In this document: positions 27,401-57,400 of the stretch, piece after piece | How positions within the stretch are numbered: position 1 is the stretch's first letter | Layout of the letters: every line of letters begins with the position of its first letter | Assembly (NCBI GenBank): GCA_029962745.1 | Contig: CM057169.1 | Coordinates: 22,056,437 to 22,120,436, forward strand | Origin: Echinometra lucunter | Taxonomy: Eukaryota > Echinodermata > Echinoidea > Camarodonta > Echinometridae | Direction of reading: 5' to 3' | DNA length: 64,000 nt | Program-made: the position numbers and the translations under genes | The notes under the pieces: generated by a model | The model's database searches: none | What the model saw: the letters and a program-made list of their open reading frames with translations, nothing else | Told to the model about the DNA's origin: nothing

Positions 27401-30400
27401 AATAAAGAGAAATATGAACGAATTAGGGGATATGGGTAAAATTTTGTCTTGACCGATGTTTATACTTTCCATGTCCCTTAGGTATACCTGGTTTCCAAGG
27501 AGATGCAGGCGACCAAGGACCTGATGGGAACATTGGAGATCCAGGAGAGAAGGGCAACATGGGGGAGTCTAGACCAGGACCACCAGGTATGGATGGTTCC
27601 AGAGGTCGCCAAGGAGTGATAGGTCAGAAGGGAGCCAGAGGACCTCCTGGAAGAGCAGGTAGATGCCGTCTCTCTCCAAATAACATTTTGTTTTTCCAAA
27701 TGAAACCTCTTTTTTCTGAATACCATCTCCTTTAAATGTGATATTCATTTGATGCATCATTGACATAGTTAAAGATTTTTGTCTCCATCCATTAAAGGTG
27801 GCCCCTATTCACAAAGGTGTACTAACCTAAACCATGGTTTAAATCTTTCTCTCTTAACGTGTTGACTACCGAATTCCATGATTTCCATGGTTTTAATACG
27901 GGGACAAACCGGTTCCAGGAGCAACGGGTTAATTATCTTTTGTTTAATACTTTCACTTTAATTAAATTCAGAGTTTTATATTCATTTAGTGGCATCCTGG
28001 GACTAAATTGTTACAGATTTACAGGCTTACAGCATTGATGAAATTAATGGAAAAATAGCTAAACTACCAAAGAGGTAGCACTTCAGCATGCCACATACCG
28101 GTACCCATTTACCCATCAGTAGAGAGAGAGTGGCAAATTATGTTTTACCAGAGGACATGAGTGCTGGGGTGGGATTCGAACCCACAACCTCTTGATTGAG
28201 AGTCAAGGGATTGACCAAAACCACTTTCTATGATCCATGACTATTGCTGACTTTTGCAAGAGATTGCTGAAAGCTTATCTTTTCTATAAATGTTTTAAAA
28301 GAGAGTAAACATAAATTGTGGAGAGGGAACATAAATTGTAGGGTGCATTGAAAGTTAGAACAATCCAAAATGTTCTACATAAGAACAAATTGTTATTATT
28401 TCATTGTGTAATTTTTTCAGGACCTGCTGGTCGGACCATGAAAGGTGATCTGAGTTTCCAGGGTCCACCTGGAGAATCTGGAAATCCAGGGCCAAAGGGA
28501 TTCATGGGCTATCAGGGAGCCCCAGGAAGAGATGGTCGTTCTGGAAGCAAGGGTTAGTAGGAGAACCTTGCATGCTTTACTTCAACAGTCACTTTTTCCT
28601 AGATTTGTCCTTGATGGCACATTTTTTAAAAAAAATCCATACTTTGCTATTTTTTTACTCAGAAAATTACTTTTGAATTTATTGTCTTTGATAATGGGCA
28701 TGAAAAGTCAAATTAAAAAAATGAGGGGGAAACTAACACATGCACTTTTCAGGCTAACTTTTGCCCACATTTCTGCTTTGGATTGTTGGTAGAAGGATGT
28801 TCAGAGTTTTGTTTGTATTTTCAGGTGCACCTATATTCACAGAGGTAGTATTTGTTCATATTATTATTGATATTTAAGGACTTTTTCACGGGCTACTAAC
28901 TTCGAGAATATTTCATTCATGTTACAGAATCATGAAATTTGCTTATTCATATTCAAATTCAAATTCAAATTCCAAAATGTATTGATTTCAATCCGAACAT
29001 TAAGGATCATTCTAAATTTTGAACATAACAAAACATAATAGCAAAATGAAACACTAAATAAACACAAAAAAAAACAAACAGATGATAGGCATGCATGTCA
29101 TGTAAAGAATAGCTAAACAAAACAAAACAAAACAAAACAAAACAATGCCACAGTCCAATTCAGAATATGATACAACAGTTTTTCGAAATAATTACAAAAC
29201 AACCAAAATCATAGTAATAATTATGTTTAAACATTTTAATTTCTTAAAATTGATATTACTGAGATTATGTTACTTCTTTCTTTCAGTATAATAATATCAT
29301 GTTAGTTCATTAACCTCTTTTAAAGAAAAACAAACACAAAAACAGAAAAGGAAAAAAAAATCGAACAAAAAAAAATAGATAATTATATAATCACATTAGA
29401 CAATAAGTTGATATTATAGTGAAGGTATCACCATAAACAAGAGTAGAAAGAGGGAGAGAGAGAAAATGAAATTAATGTGCCTTTTACCTTGTGGATTTGT
29501 TATTGCTTTTCAGCCTGTCTAATCCTTTGTCATACATTTGGCTAATTTCTTGGATTATTATTGTGCTTATGTCTGTCTCATTACTGGTCATCATTAGCTT
29601 GTGCAGTCTACGCTGTACCCTTGCATCTATCCTCAAGGCCATTCAGTAGAAGTAATGTGTTTCTGATTAAAAATGGAAATTCGACTTTTCCCAGCAATAT
29701 TTAATCAATTAGACTAAGTTAAACATATAATATTACATCATCATATCACACCGTGAACCTCTTATGCTATCTACACCACCATGCAAACACTTTCCTTCAA
29801 CAGACATTCAATATTACATCATGAAAAAGGCAATTTCTTCTTCTTTGATATGGAACCACATTTCATTCATTTTCATTTTCATTTCATTTATTTATTTCGT
29901 ATTCCAACAAAACAATAATTCACAAAATATAAACAAGAATAAATCAAAATACAATTGTTCAATAGTTTTGCTAAATAATACATAGTCGCAATATACATGT
30001 ATCACCAATGCTTATGTTACAATTTATTATTACAGAAATACGAGGAAATACGAGGAAAGACGAGGAAAGACAGAGAAAAGGATAATGGAATTATAACAAG
30101 TTTATACTAGCAATGTTGAAAGTGATTTGCACATTGGAATAGTGATGAACACAATATGAACTGCAATGCATTGATCTTGTCTTTGCTTTCATTTACATAG
30201 ACAGGCAAACGAGTGAGGGGGCAAAATTACACAAAAACTATGTGAAAAGGTGTATTTAAGCATTGAAATGGATCAATGTAACTGTTCTTTGGGAACAGAT
30301 TATGAGTTTTATGTAGCCGTGTGTACCCATCTCCTGTTGGTTGAGAAATACTCTGTTTTATATTCCTTATGATTGTCTTGCTAGGTGATCTTGGAGGTAT

Positions 30401-33400
30401 TTGTCCCCTGTGTCCTCCCGGACTCAAAGGCCGGCCTGGAGACCGAGGCTTTGAAGGTGAGGCCGGTCCTCCTGGACAGAATGGTGGTCCAGGTGCTCCA
30501 GGACCCAAAGGATACCCAGGAGACATTGGAGTCCCTGGAGATGATGGAGACAATGGAAACCCTGTGAGTTGATCACCTTTCAGTCTTTAGAGCTTTCCTG
30601 TTTTATTTTTACTCAGGATCTGGTAACAATTGCTCCAGATCACTTTGAATTCCTAATTTAGACCCATTGCCTAATGCTATACCCTGTGGTATACATAAAC
30701 CTGCAGTGATTAATTAATACAATGCAAATGGACATTGGAACAGAAATTAGGTGCAAAACTATCTTGCATAGGTATTGCACGGCCACCTCCTGGCCAGTTG
30801 ACAGGAATTAATCTGTATTGAGTTGTTGGCATCTTTATGTTCCAATTTTCTTCAGGCTTTTTTTTTTCCAGGCTTCATATTGTGGAATGTATGTTGCTCC
30901 AAGATGTATTGATGTCCTTTTGGTCTATTTCCTCAGAGGCCAATGGTATCGATAATGATGTCAGTGTTACATGCATATCACTTTTGAAGATTGCAAATTT
31001 CAGTAGGTGATACACTAAGCTTCTAAAAATGGCTCTACTTTGTAAGTAGTTGTGTATTTGTGTAAAATTATTGATATGAGTTTGTATATCCTGTATATCA
31101 GGGTCCATCTGGACTGCCTGGACCTGCTGGTACCCAAGGTCCAAAGGGAGAAAAAGGACGAACAGGACCACCTGGCAGAGGTAATAACTAACTATGTATG
31201 AATGATTAGTTACTATAATGATGATGGTGGTGATGATGATGAGGATGATGAGGATGATACAGAGGCGGCAGAACATCAGGTTCGGACAAAGGAAGTGGAG
31301 GGGCACTTTATGTCTGTCAAACAATAGATACCCCTCCACTTTCATTTTCTGGGCCCGACATTCCGCCGCCTCTGGGTATCATGATGAAGATGTTGTTGAT
31401 GATTTTGATATGCATGATGAGGAGGATGATGATGTTGATAATGATAATGATGATGGTGTTGTTGATGATGATGATGATCATCATCATCATCATTTTCATG
31501 GTAATGGTGATAAGGGTGATGACTGATGAGGAGGATAATGTTGATAATGATGATGAATATGATGTTCATGATGGTGATGATGTTGATGAACAGCAATGCA
31601 GGGCGTGACAAACCCGCTTGCCCGCTTGCCCAAGGCAAATAAAAATAACGGGCTGGCAAGCAAATGTCAGACTCACTTGCCCGATTGGGCAAGTGGTGAT
31701 TTTTAGATCATCTGGCCCAAATGGGCCAGATGAGCTTATGCCGTGGAGTGGCATCCGGCGTCCATCCAAAATTTCAAAATGCTTCTTCTTTGTCATTCCT
31801 TGTCTGATTTCAATTCCGTTTCCTTTATATGATAGCACTAGGTGGGGGATTCGAAACTTCTGCACAGAATTTTGAAACTCATTAAATATGCTAATTTATG
31901 CACATTTTTCAAAAATCACAAAAAATGTTTCTTCTCCATCATTTATCAACTGATTTGGATTTTTTTTGTTTCATCTGGTAGAGCTACATGAGGTACGCTG
32001 AACTTCTACACAGAATTTTGAAATTATGTCTCAAAAATTACTTATGCTAATTTATGCAAAATTTACTTGGAAATCACAAAAAATGCTTCTTTTCCTTCAT
32101 TTGTCAAACGATTTTTTTTTTGTTTTGTTTCATTCAAGCATACACTTAAAGATTTCTTATTGAAGGCATATGCATAAGGTTCTTTCTCGTTGTTTATTGC
32201 CTCGCTCGAGTGACTACTGTTATTTGACTGTACTTAATATGCATCACTTATTTTCCTAAAAGATTGTCCGTCTCTCGAAATTGCATTAGAAGTTTAATAC
32301 AACATTAGGTATCTTTTGGGGAACCTATGTTATACAAGCTTTGCTTTTTGATAGGTTCCTCATATTTCACATGATTGTGTTTATAGTTATAACCATTATT
32401 TTTGTCAATATTCTTTTTCTTTGTTGAACAATTACATAAAAAATTGCCTCATGTCAAATATCACACAAAATCAGTAAATCCACAGAGATATCCGTAAAAA
32501 AAGATAAACAACCACTTCTAAATTTACTCAAACAGACAAAAAATAGGAGTTAAACTCCTAAACTTAAGACTTGTGATATCGAGATGAAACGATTCTTACA
32601 TGAGACGGAAGCTTGTTAGGATGGATATGGGCCGGAGGCGCGTTTTCGATTAAAATTAATTATTAGTAGTTAGTAGACCTTGGTTTACACTCTATGCCAG
32701 CCTCGGCAATGGTTGATTTTGCAGCCGGAAGTAGGGCATTTTATGAATTACGGAAAAGGGCACGACGGCCAGCTTGAAAAGAAAGGGCACGGCCTTTTCG
32801 GCCGTGAATTGGTCACTTTTTTGGAGGGCATCGCGGCCAGTCATAGGGGCATCGACGGCCTGGCCGTCGATGGTTGTCGATTAATTTATGCCCTGCTGTT
32901 TGTTGATGTACTAAATATCACACGGTATCATTCAAACCTAGATCTTTCTGAGCCATGAAGGAAATGAGATAATTATGCCTCCGCCCACCGTAGGTGGTTG
33001 CCAGAGGCGTTATGTTTTCGGGTCATCCGTCCGTCCTGTTTGCGTTCTCGCGATAACTTAAGAACTGTTTGACGGATCAACTTCAAACTTGGCTCGTGTA
33101 TGCATACAGGAGGGACAATGATCTGATTACATTTTGGAGTCTCAAGGTCAAAGGTCAAGGTCATAGAGGTAATAATACACATAAAAATGGCTCGTTCTGG
33201 CGATAACTTAAGAACCATTTGACAGATTGGCTTCAGACTTGGCTCATGTATGCACATGGAAGGGACAATGATCTTAGATTTGGGGGTCACAAGGTCAAAG
33301 GTCAAATGTCATAGAGGTAATTATGTACATAGAAATGGTTTGTTTTCACCATAACTCAACAACCATTTGACTGATCAACCTCAGACTTAGCACATGTATG

Positions 33401-36400
33401 CATATGGGAGGGACAATGATCTAATTTAGATTTTGGGGTCTCAAGGTCAAAGGTCAAATGTCATAGAGGTCATTATGTACATAGAAATGGTCCGTTCTCG
33501 CGATAACTCAACAACCATTTGACGAGCAGCTTCATACTTGACACATATATGCATATGGGAGGGACAATGATGTGATTAGATTTTTAGGTCTCAAGGTTAA
33601 AGGTCAAAGGTCATAGAGGTCATTATATACATGAAAATTGCTTGTTCTTGCAATAACTTCACAACTCCGTGACGATTCATCTCCCAATTTGGCTCATGTA
33701 TGCATATGGAAGTCTCATAATTGTCTTATTACATTTGGGGTCACAAGGTCAAAGATGTCATTTTATTCATGAAAATAAAAAATCAACATAAATGTGCCAT
33801 ATATTTCTGATCTGGCAATTGCGGAGGCATAATTTCGACCGTGCGCGGTCTAGGATTCATCTAGTTTCTCTTTTAAGTTTTAGTTAAGAACCAAATTAAA
33901 CCACTTTTAAGAAAATATGAACATAGGAAGGACATTTCATAGGTGTGAGACATGAATCTTACCGATATTTTGGCAGTTGTGAGGAAGGATTTTACCTCTC
34001 TTATTTTTTTTCATCTAACATTATTCTGTATCTACAGTATATTTGAAATGGTAAAACGAAACCATCCGGTTTTTTTTAAACGTTTTGCAAAAAACCTTAA
34101 TGACCAAGCCCTATTTAAATGATATTTGCTACTGGAAAAAAATTAGATAAAAACAAAGGAAATAAAAAGAAAATTCGGGAAAGTTCTTCTTCCTCCCGGG
34201 CAACCAATTTTTTTCTTTATTTGCCTGTCGGGCAAGTGAAGAAAAAATTTTTTGTAAAGGCCTGAGCAATGTATTTTATGGAGGAGAATAGAAGGAGAAA
34301 TCTACTAAAGTATCTTCTTCTAGTTGCATGGCAGGCCTCTCTCATCAAAAACTTACAAAACTGTCCTGAAACTTGGGACAGTATGAAATGTATATGAAAT
34401 CATAAATCGTATGAAATTTGTGTTCTGCAGACTGTTCATCATGAGGGATTGAATAATAAAAAGAATATCGTCAAAACCTCACAAAGTCTACATTAAGATG
34501 TAGAAAATTGATAATCATGTTCAGATAAAGATACTGTAAGCGAAAAGACCAGAGGTGGACAAAACAAACACATGATAGACAAATTGAAACTGCAACACAT
34601 GAAATCCAATCAAAAGCATGCATTTGACAAGTATCTATTGACAGCCGTTGACGAATGAAATAGATTTATTCATTTTTGATCCCTCGAACTGGTGCCTTTT
34701 GTGTGTACCATTCAGCACATATGGCAAGCCTGTGCCAGTCAGCTTTCTCAGCCATTGAAGGTTTAATGCATCTACCATGACTTTTGTTTCTTGCTACCAG
34801 GTGGGTTTGGTGCAAAAGGAGTTAAAGGAACAAAAGGAGAGGCGGGAGTTCCTGGTATCATGGGAGATCGTAATCTGACGATCCCTGAAGGAATAGATTT
34901 AACAGTGAGTATCGATCTTTGGAGAGGTCATGTGGATTGAGAGTGGCTAGGTAATATTTAATTATTATTATCTTTACCCAACAGGAAAGTGATTTAAAAT
35001 TCAATGCAAATCATTTTGGCAACCAAATAGGGCCCCTCACCATACATTAATTTTGATCACACAAGTTTGACTTACCCCTTTATGACGTCATCTAAGTATC
35101 ATTTGCGCATTGCATGTATTGCGTATATCCACGCATTGTATGTTCCTATTACATATGGGTTTGTTATATTGCGCATGCGAAGAGACCATGCAAAATACGG
35201 TATAATATTGCATGGCAAATTTAGTACATTAGCTTATGAGGAATTCAGTGTGTCATTGAATATGCTCTGATGTTGCACAGGCAAATTGTGCCGACAAAAA
35301 TATGCGTTTTTAATGCGCTGCTAAAATGCTTTATATAGATAATAATATGCGGTATGTGGTGTACCATATGGAAGGGCATTTTCAACGGATATACAGTATT
35401 GAAATATAGCCAAAAATATAGATCCGATTCATTACCATGGTAAATGAATGCTATGTTCAGTAACATTTTTTTATAGAATTTTAGGTCGCTTGCCATTTAT
35501 TGTTTGGCTATGAGGCACTAAGTAAAATACTTGTGATCTGTAAGAGAACCAGTGATTTTGTAACAGTATAAAACTTCTCTATCAATTGTGTCCTGGATAT
35601 CAGTCTTGGGACCAATTTTGTCTTCTCTTTGTGAATGTCAATGATTTGTCTGTGAAAGGCATATGGTAGGCAGTTTCTATGTATGGTAGGGCATAATTTG
35701 CTGCCACCAGACTTGGTGGAAAGCACTCTAAATAATTTTCATGGTTGTACCAGTCTGCAAGCAGCAAGCCTGCTGCCTCATCAAGAAATAGCCCATGGTT
35801 GGAATATGCAGGACATTACATAGTCTGTTGGTCTTAAAACTAAAGTCCACTGTTGGTGATTGACAACACCTATTATTGGGTTATCACCCTTGCGGTGTGA
35901 AATTTCCCTTGAGAGTCCACTACTTTGTGTATTTAATGACCCTTGACCATTATCACGACCTTTCTAATGTAACCTAGGGTGAAAAGGGAAATAAAGGTCT
36001 GCCGGGTCCAAGTGGTCAGGATGGAAGGCCGGGGAATCAAGGACCCCAAGGAGATCCAGGTCCTGGGTTACTTGGTCCAAAAGGTTATAGAGGAAGGCCT
36101 GGAGATCCTGGACCACAAGGCGAAGACGGACTCAGAGGACTCAAAGGAACTGCTGGTAAGAACACATGATGATCTCTTTTCCAGGGACAATTGCTCCATG
36201 TTAGTCAACTGTACACAAACCAAATTTGAATCTTTGAGCTTGGACCAGACACTTCACCTAATCTAGACCCTTAACCCAACCTGATATACCAATTACAATC
36301 CTCACCTTAAATCTACATCTTTTTCAAATTAAAGCCTGAAGCAATCATCACCAGAACTCTATGTTGGAACATCCTGAGTGAACCTTTCACTGTTCCAACA

Positions 36401-39400: not shown

Positions 39401-42400
39401 TAAGGATGTGATTGGGGTCTATTTTAGATGTAGATGTGGATAAGAGATAAGAGAGAAATTTGATAAGTGACTAACATTTGCTTCAGGCATTTTATCTTTA
39501 TGTCATTGTGCGAAAGAACGCGTCTAGAACGCAAAATACAAAAATGCAAAAATTAAAATGTCTATTTTGACATGATGGAATAGAATTTTAGCAAAGATCA
39601 TGCCACAAGAAGGTCATATATCAATTTACAAGGTCTGCATGCTACCCTTGAAATTATCAATAAATGTTTGAAAAATTTGATTTTCAATAATTATGCCTCC
39701 GCCCACTGAAGGTGGGTGCCAGAGGCATAATGTTTTCGGGTTGTCCGTCTGTCCCGTTTTCGTTCTTGCGATAACTTAAGAACCGTTTGACGGATCAACT
39801 TCAAACTTGGCTCGTGTATGCATATGGGAGGGACAATGATCCCACTAGATTTTGGGGTCTCAAGATCAAAGGTCAAAGGTCACAGAGGGTCATTATATGC
39901 ATGAAAATTGCTTGTTCTTGCAGTGACTTAACTCTGTGACAGTTCAACTTCAAACTTGGCTCGTGTATGCGTATTGGAGAGACAATGGTCTGATTAGAAT
40001 TGGGGGTCACAAGGTCAAAGGTCAAAGATGTCATTGTATACATGAAAATAAAAATATCAACATGAATGTGCCATATACTTCCAATCTGGCAATGGCGGAG
40101 GCATAAATTTCGACCGTGTGCGGTCGAGGATTCATCTAGTTTTCCATTTTGCGTTCCGGACGCGTTCTTTCGCATGACATAAAGATAAGATGCCTTAGGA
40201 TTTTTGTGGTATGTGCAACATACAGCAGAAAGACATTTGAACCTGATTATTTATCTCTTTCTGCCCCTCTCTTTCTGAAATAAGTATTTCTTGTACATCT
40301 GGATAATCATTTTTTTTTCAACTTGCATTCATATTTTCAAAATTACTTTTATTTCTGCCAGTCAATTTTTGCAGTCGTTGCTCTCTTGCCAGTGCAAAAT
40401 GATATTAATGCAGTCTCATTGTATTCCTTCTTGCAGGTATTTCTGGTTTTCCTGGTTTTGAAGGGCAGCAGGGTGACAGAGGAGACTATGGACCAGACGG
40501 ATTTCCAGGTCCACCTGGTATGACAGGAGAAAACACCCAAGGCCCTCGAGGTTTCCGTGGTTCTCAAGGACCAGATGGAAGGGAGGGTCGCAAAGGTAAG
40601 CCTCTTTACTTGGTCTGAATATGAATTTGACCCCTCTAAATAAGATACTAATTACTTAATTGTTTATAGGAGCTCTATTTGCTTTTTCTATAGTACTAAA
40701 CTTTATTTATGATTATTATTTGGGGGGGGGTAATATTATTGTCATTATTATAATTATTATTTTCATCATCATTTTTTTGAAATTTATACTATTTTCATGA
40801 TTTTTTTAATTTTCATTTTCCTTTTCTTAGGTCAACCTGGGCAGCCCGGTCCCAAGGGTGAGCGAGGATTCACAGGTGACTTTGGTCAACGGGGAGATGT
40901 GGGTGAACCAGGTATCCCTGGAATACCAGGAAGGAAAGGTTTCAATGGATATGATGGCAGACCAGGAAGACCTGGACCTCCTGGTCCTCAAGGACCACGT
41001 GGTAAGTATTTCAGTGAGGGTTGATGCTGTTTCATTTCAGATACAATATTATTGTTGTTAGTTATTACACAACCTAGTTTTCACCAGAAATTCGTTCTGC
41101 ATTGTTCTTCCTTTTAAAGAGGATGAGTTTTGATCAATATAAACTACCATAAGGGGTGGTTGTTTAATTTCCATTGGCGAGGTGGCAGGGCACTAGAGGA
41201 AAAAGAAGTTGGGTCTGTGTTACTGATGTAGATGTGTTTATGCCTGCTGGAAGCAGTAGGATACAAACCCATGTCATTAGATTGGCTGATGGATCATACA
41301 TCACTGACATGGTTGCAGAAATGGGATACCAATAAATGCCCCTGAAATGACTAGTGAATCTGACAGTGCCAAAATCATGGCATGACTAGTGACTCTTACA
41401 TTACTGACATGGTGGCAGCGGTGGGATATAAACCCATGCCCCTGAAATGACTGGTGGATCTTACATTATTAACATGGTGGCAGCAGTGGGATACAAATTC
41501 ATGCCATAGAAATGACTAGTGACTCTTACATTACTGACATGGTGGCAGCAGTGGGATATAACCCCAGGCCCCCCTGAAATGACTGGTGACTCTTACAGTG
41601 ACAACATAATGGCAGCAGTGAGATTCAAACCCTTGCCCCCTGTAATGACTGGTTGACTCTTACTTTACCAACATGATGGCAGCAGTGGGATACCAGCCCA
41701 TGCCATACAAATGCCTAGTAGATCTTACATTACTGACATGCAGGCAGCAGTGGCCAAGGATGCAAACCTATGCAATTGAAATGTCTGGGGATATAATATT
41801 ACTGACATGGTGGCAGCAGTGGGATAACACTAAGGCCCTTGAAATGGCTGGGGGATCTTACATTACTGACGTGGTGGCAGCAGTGGGATACCAACCCAAA
41901 TCATTGAAATGACTTGCGACTCTTATTGTACTGACATGGTGGCAGCAGTGGGATACCAACCCAGGCCCCTGAAATGGCTGGGGGATCTTACATTACTGAC
42001 ATGGTGGCAGCAGTGGGATACCAACCCATGTCATTGAAATGACTGGTGGGTCTTATATTACCAGCATAGTGACAGCAGTGGGATACTGTAAACATGGAAT
42101 TTTTCGCAGTGTTTAAATTTTCGCACATTTAGCGCGGCACGACACTTGCGCGAAAATAATAACATGCAAAATATTCTGTTCATTATGCACATGAATACAG
42201 TTATCCAAACCGTCTGTGAAAATTAAAAATGCGTGATTTTTTTCAACTTGGCTGAGCCTGAAAAAGTAATCATGCGAAAATTCCATTTTTACAGTACTTA
42301 ATTACCCCATCTCAATGTTTGATGACTCTTACCCCAACATGTTGATTAAGGATTCATTCCTTTCCTTTTTGTTTATGGATTTGCCATATTTTCCTCAATT

Positions 42401-48400: not shown

Positions 48401-51400
48401 CGGTCCAGACGGGTGAACCTGGAGCCCGTGGAGATCCTGGACCAAGCGGATTGGCAGGTCAGTTACACTTAGCAGTCATATCCCATTCATGAAAGGAAAT
48501 CATAAAGAGCTCTTAGGGAATCAGCTTTTCCTTTTCACAGGGGTATCACTTTGATTTTCTTTCATTTGCTCTACTCTTAGAATGAAAAGCCATGTATCTT
48601 GAAACAACTATGTCCACTATGAAATTGTTTCATGTGTACACAGTAGAAACAAAATTTGATTAAATGAATGATGCATGTATTCCTTTTTGTTTTATTGTCG
48701 TTGGTGTTGCAGGAAGATTTGGAGATAAAGGTATTCAAGGACCTCCAGGTTTCATCGGTCGTATTGGAGAACCTGGTCTTGATGGCCCACCTGGACCTGA
48801 GGGAGATCCGGGGCTGCCAGGTAAGTTGGTTCTACCACAATTGCTCTGATGAAACTCCTTCACAATAGGTTACCCACCATAATGGAAAAAAAAACCCTGG
48901 AAAGTCAAGGGAAAATATATTCTTCTGGAAAGTAATGGGAAGTCATGGGAAATTTTTTTTTTTAATCTCCCCAAGTCATGAAAAGTCATGGGAATCATAT
49001 GTGGGTGTGGGTCGTGTGTGGCTCTGGTTGTTCGGTGAGGTGGAAGTCATCACAAACATGCTATGATATCAATGTGTGGTACTTGTAGCCATGTCAAAGT
49101 GGTGCTTATCTGGTCATGAAAAAAGGCTAAAATTGGTCATGGAAAATCTTGGAAAATCATGGAATTTTGTTCTCAACTTTCTATGGGAATCCCTTTCATA
49201 TTCATTTGCTATCTCAACTAATCATGGAGACATTTGAAAATAACGTGATATGCACTATACAAGAACGGAATATTATTATTAATTAAGAAATAACTTAAAC
49301 ACATGGCATTACCACGCTTCCTTTGGGATCAGTGTCTTACACAAAGCAAATATATATAATGTCCTCCATGGACCAAAAACTATAACTAGCCTTTAGACTT
49401 AGCTTAACTTGAAAATCCAGTTCCGATTCTGACCCGTAAACTGCATCTTTAACCCATTCGTGACAGAGGTCCACATTTTGTGGTTTGGCCTAATATCTTT
49501 TGATGCAAAGCCCTAAAAATCATACCAAATACATGAGCAGAAAGAGCAAAAAATTCTACACAAACTGTGCCCATTTTAGTTGCGTCAATAATTGTTGTTT
49601 GATGCTGAACATTTTTCAAAGAAAAATAAGCATTAAAATCCTTAAATTGGCAATGTGATAGAAAGTTTAAAATCACTGTTTTCCCCTGCAAATTGGCAAC
49701 TTTTTGACTTCTCATCATAATTTCTGTCAATTCATATTCATTTCAGATACATGACGTTTTATAAGAAAAATGTAGCAATAAAATAAAAATGTTGGTGTTG
49801 CCAATTTGAAAAATAAAAGCTGATCAAATTAGGCTTTAAATAATTCCTGTCATGAATGGGTTAATGGAATAAAGCCTGGAGGACATTTCAGATTGCTAGT
49901 AGGTTATGTTCAAATTTATCCCAGATCTTACATGAACAGACCATGAGCCTGTCGTCTCTACAGAACTTTGTAATAGATCAGAGCTCAACTTGAGTGTGAT
50001 GTCAGTTACAAGTCTGTACGTATAAGATAAAAGAATACAAGTTTGTGATCAACTGAAAGACTTTCGATTGATTTAATGAGGATAGTGATTTTTATGTGAT
50101 GGGGCCCAGTAGTTCCAAACTAACCCAATCCAATTGAATCCCCATTGGAGATCCCCATTGAATACCAATTGGCAATTGGGAGTACGGTTGAAAGTCAAAA
50201 TGCGTTTAATTTTTTGAACTGCCTTAATTGCAACTTTTTATGCAAGAGGGCCCTGTAGGGAAAGCAGGACGTTCTATTTAAGCACAAGGCATTGTACCAT
50301 CCCTCACTGATTAAATCGTTGTCATAAATGATTGCCAAGCATTATTTCTTATTTTTGTTCCTTCTATTAGGTCTTATAGGATTCCGTGGACTAGTTGGTC
50401 CAGATGGACCCAAAGGAGAGCCAGGTCCTACTGGGGATCTAGGTAGGCTGTTACATACTGTCAAATATGTCCTAGTGGCCACTTCTCTATAAAGATCACA
50501 TGCCTATAGTGGCAGTTTACATCATCTCCTTTGAAGGAGAAATAGTTATAGAATCTGCCTTTAGCAGTGCCCTGTTTACAGTGGCCACTTTTTCTGTTTC
50601 CCTTGGGTGGTTTGTATAGACAGTTTTGACCATATATGCTTTTAAAGCAATCAAATTGCATTATTTGCAGTTACATGGTATCATTTTCAAGATTGTTTTG
50701 ACCTTGTTTAAATGGCATCACAGACAAAATATTTCATATGATATTAAAATGAAACAATGTGTAAATAATTCAAATGCCTTTAATTTCAAGTATAGATAAA
50801 GTTAGATATTCATACCTGAAATTGTTGCAATTTTTGAAGGGTTCATATTTGCTAGGTTTCAGGTTGCACAAATTTGTTATTCTGCAATATTAACATACCC
50901 ATATGCTTTCTGAAGTTAAGGTCAAGACTATGGAAGGTTGATTTTCTGCTGTTGTTTTCCAGGCTTCCCTGGATTAAAGGGTTTTCCAGGATACAATGGC
51001 ATTCGCGGTCAGAAAGGTGACCCAGGAAGAGGTGGCATCCCAGGATTTCCGGGTGACCCAGGTGATGCCGGAGATCAAGGACCGCCAGGTAAGGTTCTTG
51101 GACTTATTAAGGAAAACTAGTCCTATCCTATCCTTTCAATTCACCTTTCTCCTGAAGGCCTGTTCACATATGCAGTGATAGACCACTTTGAAAAAAAAAG
51201 CTGAAGAATTTAAGTGTACTGCGCTTCACATTTTCTTAATATATTGTAACATGCACAGGTAAGGAATATGTATAGGTCCTTTGTTCTGTTTCCCAAATTG
51301 ACTTTCACTAAGTAAACTAAAACTACCACACTTTTTAAAAAATTGTGGTTTATTGCGCTATGTCTGAATGAGTCTTTAATGTGTCAGTGTTACTTACCTA

Positions 51401-54400
51401 TGGGAAATCTGGATCCATGTTTAATTGTGTGTACAGGGGCCCGTTGCATAAAACTTGCGTTTGATTGCAACTCCTAAAAATGAAATGCAAGTCCTTAATG
51501 TGCACTTTTGATTAGCTGAAAATAAAGTTGTGTTTGATTTTACCGAGTTGCATTCAAACGGTCCCTAGAACCAGCATTTTTCCAGTATAGGGGTTCGGTC
51601 ACTTGACTCTCAATCAAATTGTACAATGTTTCAGTTTCTGCCTATTGCATAGACCTGAGAAAGGCTCGGATTTCACCTAAGGTTGTCTTTCTCCGCCCAG
51701 GTTTTAAATGTGTAACTAGCTTGAAGAATGTATTCCTGGAAATGCAAAGCATACTAGTAGCAACTGCCAGCGCTAAGGCTAGGGTAATGATATCAACCCC
51801 TTCAGAAGTACATGTACAAGAATACTATGCCAAAATGTGACATCTCCAAAAATGTTATTGTTGTTGTTGTTGCTGTTGTTGTTTTTGTTGATTGTGTTAT
51901 TAATATTACCAGATTCTCCAGGGGGGTAAGGCTACCACAGTAGTAAGGGAACCAACCACAGTTTGCCTTTTGCATGCTTTTCTATGACAGCCTCAAGCTG
52001 TTCTGTATTACTTTAAATCAGGTTATGTTGCCTGTGGTTATAATCTGAATTTATGTCTGATTGTTTGTTCAAGGACCTCAAGGGCAGAAAGGTTACCCTG
52101 GTCTAAAGGGAAACCAAGGATTATCACCCCCAGAGGGAAGTAGAGGAGAACCAGGAACACCGGGTAGACAAGGAGAGCCGGGTGACAGAGGTGTGTCCAC
52201 CTAGCTGTTCTGTAGGGCAATAGAATTTTCAAAGTCAGAAAGAGGCAACTTTTTGTTTCTGTATTGCTTTTATCCCCTTTTTCTCCCTTTTTTTTTTAGT
52301 TGTTGTCTCCCTCTTGTTCCCTCATTATACAAGAAGGTAAACTGCTCTTTATAATAATAATAATAATAATAATACATAGGATTTCTATAGCGTCTTTTCC
52401 ATTTTGATTAAATGCTCAAGGTGCTTTAAAAAAAAAATACAGATAAACAAAGAATGCGTAACAACATAACACAGAAAAGAAAAAGAAAATGTCTGTCTTC
52501 AAACCTAGTACCTGCTTAGTTTGAACAAATTTCTTCTCCATTCTCTCCTTCTCTCTTTCTCCACTCTCCTATCCATTTTCTTCTCTCGCTCTCCCCTTTA
52601 ATCTCATGTTTTCTCTTTTCTTTTTTTTTTCTCTCCAAATCTTTTTATTTCGCTCAGCATATAAACCTTTCTCTCCTGCTTCCCCTTTTTCTATTCTTCC
52701 CCTCCACATCCTCTTCTTGCTCCCTCTCCTCCACACACCTTCCTTCTTCTCTCTTCTTTTCTTCTCTCTGTCTCTCCCTCTCTTTTCTTTGTCTATCTCT
52801 CTTCCTCTTCCTTTCAGCATGTCTGTGACTCTTACGTTAAGAAACCTGTTGAACACTAAGGCCAAGATAACTGAATACTAAAACCAAATCGTGCTCAATG
52901 GGTTAAATAGGTTAAATAGGGTAAAAACTGTGTCATGTTTGTCTACAGGTGGTATACAGCAGACTTTTACCTCTTTATATCTGGTTGAATATTTATAAAT
53001 CATCTGTAATCTCTTCCATCTTCCAGGAACACCAGGAAGGTTTGGTTTCCAGGGTCCCAGAGGTCTTCAGGGAGTGAAAGGAGAGCTTGGTGAGCGAGGA
53101 CTGCCTGGTCGCGTACCCCCTGTTGGCCCCCCAGCCCGTAAAGGAATGCCAGGAGTTCCAGGAATACCAGGTTTTCCAGGTAATGACCTTTTTTATGCCT
53201 CCGCCCACCGTAGGTGGGTGCCGGAGGCATTATGTCTTCGCATCATCCGTCCGTCCGTCCGTCCCATTTTCCTTCTCGCGATAACTTAAGAACTGTTTGA
53301 CAGATCAACTTCAAACTTTTCTCATGTATGCATATGGGAGGGACAATGATCTGATGAGATTTTGGGGTCTCAAGGTCAAAGGTCAAAGGTCATAGAGGTC
53401 ATTATGTACGTAGAAATGGTTCGTTCTCGCGATAACTCATTAACCATTTGACAGATCAACTTCAAACTTGGCTCATGTATGCATATGGCAATGGCGAAGG
53501 CATAAATTTCGACCGTGCGCGGTCGAGGATTCATCCGGTTTTTTTATATTTCGTGAAGTTGCCAGTGATGCCAGTTTTTAGGTTTGGCCAGAATTCAGGC
53601 CCTGTCACCTTTCAAGTTCTTTGAGGCTTGGCTTCATAGTGTTCAGAATGTATGAGACTTCAACATGTTATGATTTTTTTCCCGATTTTCAGCAAAGTAA
53701 CTGCCATGGTATCCTGCAATAGCAAAATTAAAGCTACTTTAATGTAGGTATATTTTCAGATAATTGTTGAAAGTTGGTCATGCCAGCATTTATTTTAAGA
53801 AATATTTGAAATAGATCAATTCAGTTGGTTTTGTGCACCTTGTTCATGATATCAGGTTACTATTTGCATACACACATGCACTTATAAGGCATGTACCCGC
53901 ACATGCACCTACAAAAAGAAACTTGCCCAGCAGTATAATGTATCAGTCAGAGGCCTAGAATCTTAATATGCAGTATATAATTTTGCATGTAACGGTATCT
54001 TCGTATTTACCTTCTATGATAAAACAATTCATTGAAAAGTTTTCGAAGGCTGAAAATTTGAAAGTTTTTCTGTAATCTCTTGACAGGTTTGAATGGGTTT
54101 ATTAGCTCGTTCATGACATGTGGATAATATTTGAATGCATACGTAACAGTTAAAGCATTTGAAAGGCATGTACCAAGACACACACACACATACACACAAA
54201 TAAAGTAACTTGTTCAGCAGTATAGCAATCAGGGGCTTAGAGTCTTGATATGCTGTATGTGATTTTGCATGTATCTTCCTATTTACCTTCTATAATGAAA
54301 TAAATCTGGTGAGTTTTTGTGATGTTTTTTTTTTCTGAGTTTTTTTTTTAAAGGCATGTACCAAGACACACACACACACACACACATACACACAAATAAA

Positions 54401-57400
54401 GAAACTTGTCCAGCAGTATAGCAATCACGGGCTTAGAATCTTGATATGCTGTATATGATTTTGCATGTATCTTCCTACATGTATTTACCTTCTATAATGA
54501 AATAAATCTGGTGAGTTTTTGTGGTGTTTTTTTTTTCTGAGTTTTTTAACCCGTAGAGGTACAGTGTCACCTTTAGGAGATGCTTTTGCAGTATCTGTTG
54601 GTCCAGAATGTTGGACATATCATACATGAGCAGAAAGGGAAAAATGCACTGAGAAATTTAAGCCCATTCCCATTGCTGTATGGTGTGGCATTCTCAAATT
54701 AGAGCAGTTTAATACTGTTTTCACACTGCCGAAACGGAATATCCATGCCGTTATATTTCATGACGCTTCACTTTCAAAACGCTTCCAAAACGCTTCTGGT
54801 TTCTGTTCACACTGAACCAATGAAGTCCGTTTTGAGCGAAAGCGTAATATTACGGTGTGAGAGAGTGCGGAAATACGTCATTACCCACCATGCATTTTGC
54901 TATCTCTAGCTGTGTAATTTTTTTGTTTTATTTGATATATGTAACAAAACAAATCAGTTATTCAGAATAAAATGTATAATTATTACTTAACTTATTGCAA
55001 TTTGTTTAAATTTATTGAATAATTATTTTTTTTATTTGTATGTATAGTTTAATTTTTAAACTCATGTACGAATGCTAACGCGTTTGTTTCTTCATACATG
55101 ATTCGCGTCCATGCAGCTAGAGCTAGTGGCGTCGAACGTACGCTGCACTGCCATGCCGATCCATGCAGCTCGCTAGCGCTGCGATCGAAGATACCCGCGC
55201 TTTCACTCGTTTCCCGCATTTTCCAGGTTTTTGGTGGGAACCTAGTTGACCTTTGACATTTCATTCTGCTTTATTTCCTTTTTTCTGTACATACCAAAAA
55301 ATAAAGCGTCATATTTGGAATATTCCGTTTTCAAAACACCTCAAAACCTAGTGATAGACCTCACACGTAGATTGCGGAATATTTGATTCCGTTTTAAAAT
55401 ATGACGCTATGCCGAGTGTTCATACCAAAGCGTTTTTTTCAAAAAACGCTTTTATTCCGTTATATTTGTTTGGTGTGAAAGTGGTATAAGTGTAACTAAT
55501 CATTAAACTCTTTAAATTGGCAATGCAGTGATTTATTTATAATCACTATTTCTGTGTTCAAATTGGCAATTTCTTATTCAATTTTACAATTATATTTAAT
55601 TTTGGTTTATGTTATATCCATTTTTTTTTTCAAGCTATGTAAGCATGGAAAAAATAATTTTTATTGGCAATTTGAGGATTGAAGATGATTAATTTACACC
55701 TTAAGAAAGCTCTGTACTTCTATGGGTTAAGGCTGAATATTTGAATGCTTTGTGTAATCTCTTGACAGGTTTTAAAGGATTCATTGGAGATTATGGAGAA
55801 ATGGGAGATGAAGGTCAAAAGGGAGAAAAAGGAAGGCCAGGAAACTATGGACTCAAAGGTGCCCCAGGAACTTCAGGTTAGTTTTATAATTCCTCTCAAC
55901 CTATTCATGACAGAGGTTCACATTTTGTGGTTCGGCCTAATATCTTTTGATGCAAAGCCCTAAAAATCATACCAAATACATGAGCAGAAAGAGCGAAAAA
56001 TTCTACACAAACTGTGCCCATTTTGGTTGCGGCAATATTCGTTGTTTGATGCTGAATTTTTTTTAAAGGAAAAGAAGCATTCAAATCCTTAAATTGGCAA
56101 TGTGATAGAAAGTTTAAAATCACTGTTTTCCCCTGCAAATTGGCAACTTTTTGACTTCTCATCATAATTTCTGTCAATTTATATTCATTTCAGATACATG
56201 ACATTTTATAAGAAAAATGTAGCAATAAAATAAAAATATTGGTGTTGCCAATTTGAAGAATAAAAGCTGACCAAATTAGGCTTTAAATAATTCCTATTAC
56301 GAATGGGTTAATTTGTACTGCCTCAAGGGGACTAGTCACTCATATTATTTCACTCTGAAAGGGAAAGTCCACCCCAGAGGTTTCATTGTTTCAATAAAAG
56401 GAGTTAAATTTAAACAGCATTTTAAAAAAGAAATGAGCAAAATCGGTCAAAGAATAAGAAAATTACACTCATGTACATTTTCTATGTAAGTTACTCTTGG
56501 CTCTGCAAATTGGCAACACCGATGACATCAATAGCGAGCAGCTCTCCATTTACTTTGTACATGAAATTTCACATTTTATCAATTTTCTTGGAAGTTACAC
56601 ATTTTCTCACCCCATAGTCAAAGTATGTTACATAAAAAGCAATTCTTCTGAACAACCCTTTTGTTTTGTTAATTGTCAAGAGGGAGACAGAGTACTGTGA
56701 TTCAGTTCAATTCAGTGCACTTCACTATAGTTCATTTCAATTCAGTTTGATTTAGGTTTAATTCAATGCAGTTCCATTCAATGTCATTCTATTTCACTGA
56801 ACTTGACAGGTCAGTCTGGGTTTAATGGTCAGAAGGGAGACAGAGGAGATCCAGGTCCTAGAGTGAAAGGACAGAAGGGAGAGCAAGGAGACGAAGGATT
56901 CCCTGGGTTCTCGGGTAGAATGGGACTACCAGGTATCGATGGACCTCAAGGGCCTCCAGGTGAGTAAAAAAAAACTCAGACTAGAACTTGTGTGACTGGA
57001 TAAATTTGAAAATTGGTTGGGCTGTGCTAGCTCTGGCACAACTTGTAGAAAATGTGACTGTTCATCATGTTTTACTTTCTTCTCACTGTTCAGACATGAA
57101 CAGTGAGAAGATGTTTTGATGTTTTTATATTGCCATTCTATGATTATTGCTCTGACATAAGCAGCATTAGCTCTGGTCCTTATTTCATCAGGGATATGGA
57201 GTTAGAGTTGGGATTAGGGTTGCAAATCCTTGATGACTTTTAAAAAATCGTTTGACTGTTTTCTTTGTGCAGGACCCAAAGGAAGGCCTGGACCATTTGG
57301 AGATTTTGGTACTTCTGGTTTACCAGGGCGGAACGGAGAGCCAGGAATGCCAGGCTTCCAAGGAGATAGAGGACAACCTGGATATCCAGGTAGGAATGTT

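Follow-up and report, generated by a model that had tools for sequence, protein, structure and literature searches.

Tandem duplications inside genes are commonly observed (PMC4974935). The closest known case to the one analyzed here is, as its report describes it, that of the potato RdRp gene PGSC0003DMG402000361, in which a tandem duplication of an intron end together with an exon start created an intron (PMC4974935; Ma, Lan and Niu 2016). The intron gain in that gene, which involved activation of a cryptic GTAAG, is backed by RNA-seq (PMC4974935). An intragenic tandem duplication of an exonic AGGT segment, associated with intron gain, is a further known case (PMC3443670).

The locus described here lies in an intron of a collagen gene and involves the same kind of mutation as in potato, in that an intron end and an exon start were copied. 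It differs from the potato case, as described in that report (PMC4974935), in that the exon piece is about 19 nt long and is soon followed by a stop, and in that the copies have diverged further. Like the AGGT case it is an intragenic tandem duplication that copied a splice signal, but the duplicate spans an intron-exon boundary, whereas the segment described in PMC3443670 was exonic. Because a gained intron is not evident, unlike in potato, the collagen case is classed from its sequence as a boundary-spanning tandem duplication, a known kind of event, rather than as an intron gain. A spare splice site that has decayed within a large intron would be unsurprising.

Host gene and the copied splice junction

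The window, i.e., the whole 64,000-nt stretch of DNA that was analyzed, contains glycine-X-Y segments on the plus strand spanning 6281-58931, and C4 (NC1) domains come after them. PF01413 (C4/NC1) was present in all three of the C-terminal pieces scanned (E values 2.1e-13, 5.2e-34 and 5.3e-24), and comparison of the NC1 region with the sequences of solved structures gave 13 distinct matches, every one named type IV collagen. Glycine-X-Y segments followed by C4 (NC1) domains identify the predicted host gene as a type IV collagen gene. A protein homologue search scored 7953 candidates, 4985 of which passed, and other collagen types were numerous among the 120 matches listed; a search with the NC1 protein passed 34 of 305 candidates, with top identities of 63% and 62%. 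Neither among those 120 listed matches nor in the NC1 search was a close protein relative found, the best identity over NC1 being the 63% just given.

Other introns of the gene hold large tandem arrays at 41382-42086 (periods 65/130/199) and at 33043-33754 (periods 150/302). There is also a weak tRNA match within the gene at 28168-28224 on the minus strand (32.2 bits vs a gathering score of 29), which is perhaps a tRNA-derived repeat.

The features of the real splice junction and of its upstream copy are as follows.

55729-55768, plus strand: real intron end and acceptor, placed by local alignment and by the exon list
55769-55876, plus strand: real collagen exon, 108 nt, phase 1, encoding (G)-35 residues-(G)
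54046-54086, plus strand: relic intron end with the acceptor CTTGACAG, identical to 55729-55768 at 36/40 aligned positions
54087-54105, plus strand: relic of the exon's first 19 nt, encoding (G)LNGFIS, identical to 55769-55787 at 14/19 positions

The exon at 55769-55876 is real, although the number 33 that the original prediction had given it does not necessarily apply, as it is number 32 in the list of GXY-bearing exons. The same prediction held that about 60 bp of intron end and exon start recur 1.7 kb upstream of this exon, and the alignments bear this out. The AG of the relic acceptor ends at 54086. The repeat finder reported the ungapped pairs 54046-54068/55729-55751 and 54067-54103/55749-55785, at spacings of 1683 and 1682. 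In a comparison of 54020-54160 with 55600-55900, the top gapped local alignment paired 54046-54103 with 55729-55785 (score 68), and blastn of the relic against the real junction gave 84.5% identity over 58 columns (E value 3e-12 against the window). With 54040-54130 as the query, the highest score among 1000 first-order Markov shuffles of the target was 34, and the top 300-base tile in the rest of the window had a score of 26. Likewise, among the 630 pairs of acceptor regions that can be formed from 35 exon starts and the relic, the relic and the real acceptor score 68 and the runner-up 31. Since the likeness spans the splice junction, continuing from the intron into the exon, it exceeds a plain acceptor consensus.

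The junction of this exon also stands apart from the others in the gene. When the ends of 37 exon pieces, some of them approximate, were used as 74 boundary probes on the plus strand of the window (E value ≤ 0.001), solely the acceptor of exon 55769-55876 matched elsewhere in the window across the splice junction, and the remaining matches were on the intron side. Read in the same phase as the real exon, the relic frame encodes 13 residues before the TAA at 54125-54127. The predicted GLNGFIS is therefore read, but the stop does not follow it directly, being six codons past the first S.

The exon just before the real one has, in its acceptor region (52980-53025), TCTGTAATCTCTT in common with the relic acceptor. 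That exon's acceptor (53026) was considered as a further member of the family. It has 13 bases in common with the relic, and its score of 26 is tied at about the 13th rank of the 630 pairs; against the real acceptor, 12/3000 and 31/3000 single-pair shuffles equalled or exceeded the observed score for a pair that had been picked post hoc, and the claim was dropped.

The duplicated block and the later insertions

The copied junction belongs to a longer block, which includes a left arm and a repeat, R, that is present in three copies (R1 to R3). The parts lie in the following order.

53839-54030, plus strand: left part of unit 1, consisting of the left arm and R1, 68% identical including gaps to 54106-54306
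54106-54345, plus strand: start of unit 2, consisting of the copy of the left arm and R2, with the tandem junction at about 54105/54106
54346-54547, plus strand: R3, a later duplicate of R2, in a tandem array of period 196
54546-55730, plus strand: TTAA-flanked element between R3 and the real acceptor, with inverted ends of about 15 bp inside the TTAA

The anatomy of the duplication is demonstrated. The sequence that starts at 53839 (CTTGTTCATGA) is found again at 54106 (CTCGTTCATGA), immediately after the copied exon bases; the two positions are also given as CTTGTTCATGATATC and CTCGTTCATGACATG, respectively. The left end of the block thus reappears behind the exon bases, and the duplication junction, where the right end of copy 1 joins the left end of copy 2, is still visible. 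The scored alignment of the relic stops at 54103, and the next two bases are ambiguous. Compared alone (53820-53880 vs 54090-54165), the two left arms score 29, a value reached by 0/2000 shuffles (maximum 26), and likeness is lost in the flank upstream of the unit, which scores 18 against its counterpart. Because R1 and R2 are highly diverged and gapped, as the 68% identity with gaps indicates, the ends of the block are uncertain by a few bases. The copies of the block 53839-54105 are in direct order and adjoin once later insertions are discounted, which is the arrangement of a tandem duplication and agrees with the earlier view that intron end and exon start were duplicated together as one block.

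Among the three copies of R, the core identity over aligned bases is 91/107 (85.0%) for R1-R2, 95/107 (88.8%) for R1-R3 and 104/109 for R2-R3. When the three were aligned together, all copies agreed at 109 ungapped columns, R1 alone differed at 25, R2 at 5, R3 at 5, and all differed at 1; these counts take in a few columns at the T-rich start of R3 that may be non-homologous. As R1 alone differs at 25 sites, compared with 5 each for R2 and R3, the latter are the younger pair.

The element that separates R3 from the real acceptor has TTAA at 54546 and at 55727, measures 1181 bp from TTAA to TTAA, and has ends reading CCC(G/A)TAGA(G/A)GTACAG. Its TTAA duplication and inverted ends, which agree at 17/19 bases with the TTAA included, are those of a transposable element. 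It may be piggyBac-type, a class with which it shares the TTAA target duplication and short inverted ends starting with CCC. When the flanks of the element are joined, copy 1 (53882-54103) aligns through R3, the real acceptor and the start of the exon. This alignment is gapped, the largest gap being one of 26 bases between R and the acceptor block that is accounted for by extra T-rich sequence of R3 absent from R1. The expectation that the relic stands behind the first repeat copy just as the real junction stood behind the third before the TTAA insertion was thus confirmed.

Partial relatives of the TTAA element are present inside the window. A second element is seemingly nested in it at 54706-55489 (limits approximate), with ends resembling TAC..TTTCACAC and what may be flanking TAA. 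Just 3' of the real exon, a diverged sequence at 55912-56315 resembles the TTAA element in both of its parts and ends with TGGGTTAA near 56311, so that the real exon seemingly lies between two relatives.

In the proposed history, about 267 bp (53839-54105), reaching from mid-intron to base 19 of the exon, would have been duplicated in tandem. The downstream copy would have kept the whole exon, which is still used, while the upstream copy would have been cut off inside the exon at the junction; it would now be intronic, with its acceptor left as a relic. The duplication of R2 into R3 and the insertion of the TTAA-flanked element would have followed, in either order. We regard this history as a whole, from the tandem duplication through the two later changes to the relic acceptor, as very probable. 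Weighing against it are the high, gapped divergence of R1 and R2, the 26-base gap in the joined-flank alignment, and a stretch of about 40 bp in R1 that comes from a dispersed repeat.

Splice potential of the relic and alternative readings

The relic acceptor was scored with a matrix built from 30 other acceptors of this gene, which were placed by a simple AG rule. Position 48703 was dropped as lacking an AG, 26340, 27481, 30420 and 34800 were excluded, and the lowest-scoring acceptors in the matrix, 37931 and 35977, may be misplaced. Donors were scored with a matrix from 11 of 20 candidate positions, the other 9 having been dropped because they lacked GT at the assigned coordinates. One candidate donor is relevant to the relic.

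54308-54314, plus strand: candidate cryptic donor CTG/GTGAGT in R2, PWM score 10.68, last exon base 54308

Could the relic acceptor still be spliced, either to the donor at 54308 as a 222-nt poison exon or as an upstream acceptor competing with the real one? Several values are compatible with this. The relic acceptor scores 6.88, higher than the real one at 4.68. The donor at 54308 and a second copy of GTGAGT in R3 at 54510, also scoring 10.68, are the best in 53300-55760 and fall inside the range of the real donors (8.1-12.7; n=11), and the 222-nt frame meets its stop after 13 residues. Within the 19-nt exon piece a strong donor was not found, its edge CAG/GTTTGA scoring 4.29 vs 8.1-12.7 for real donors, and the nearest strong GT downstream is the one at 54308. 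The acceptor score itself is not special, because 22 of the 30 real acceptors used for the matrix exceed it, as do four AGs in the relic's own intron, and 84 of the 3628 other AGs across the window reach at least the same value. Nor is the copied acceptor conserved beyond the copied sequence around it. Acceptor and exon piece together (50/59) do not differ from R1-R2 (91/107; Fisher p 1.0) or from the left arm (43/54; Fisher p 0.62), and in small samples no extra conservation of the acceptor alone (36/40) was found against R1-R3 (95/107; p 1.0) or against the exon piece (14/19; p 0.13). On these sequence features, continued use of the relic acceptor by the spliceosome, in either form, appears very unlikely. 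The relic is most likely silent, with no detectable constraint in these small samples; that it would be unspliced is suggested by a decay that matches the rate of its block and by the early stop. The relic and the remainder of the block show about equal divergence, which fits a single duplication event across the intron-exon boundary that left a relic without detectable constraint.

The two remaining explanations concern the origin of the similarity. Exon duplication occurs in collagen genes, and the relic does contain a copied exon start, so that it might be the remnant of an older duplication of the full exon, the remainder of which was deleted. Against this, the exon likeness ends after about 19 bases, the following base already belongs to the repeated left arm, and further likeness to the exon is absent from 54106-54180 (score 10); such an origin is highly improbable. 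The similarity might otherwise have come from independent insertions of a dispersed repeat that carried an acceptor-like sequence, given that a stretch of about 40 bp of R1 is dispersed in the genome. The genome search, which skips simple repeats and very common words and hence gives match counts that are lower bounds, covered 743 Mb. With 53846-54108 (263 bases) as the query it returned at least nine matches, of which four fell at this locus; the five at other places cover just about 40 bases of R1 (88-95% identity). In a comparison of four of these five loci with R1, matches at E < 0.01 were confined to the same stretch of about 40 bp, without the acceptor or exon part. To the relic acceptor block, which is contained in the query, the other match was the real acceptor alone. 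The left arm with R2 gave at least three matches, namely itself, R3 and R1, all at the collagen locus. R thus appears to hold a fragment of a dispersed repeat, yet the block, taken in its entirety, appears to be local, and we consider independent insertions extremely improbable as the source of the likeness. The dispersed part of R1 was placed at 53942-53984, and among the other loci the shared stretches reach about 98 bp.

Significance of the duplication

A tandem duplication followed by decay of the upstream junction is the reading that we retain for this locus. There is, in addition, a very small chance that the stop-containing 222-nt exon (54087-54308) is spliced conditionally and adjusts how much of this type IV collagen is made. 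If so, it would be a regulatory exon that arose from the scar of a duplication, having obtained its acceptor via the partial exon duplication and its donor via R2. Were the spare acceptor used, such duplications would offer a route to new regulatory exons.

As it stands, this collagen intron provides an example, readable step by step, of an intron end and an exon start that were copied together, apparently without effect on the collagen protein. Silent duplications of this kind form the baseline from which claims of intron gain by duplication should be judged.
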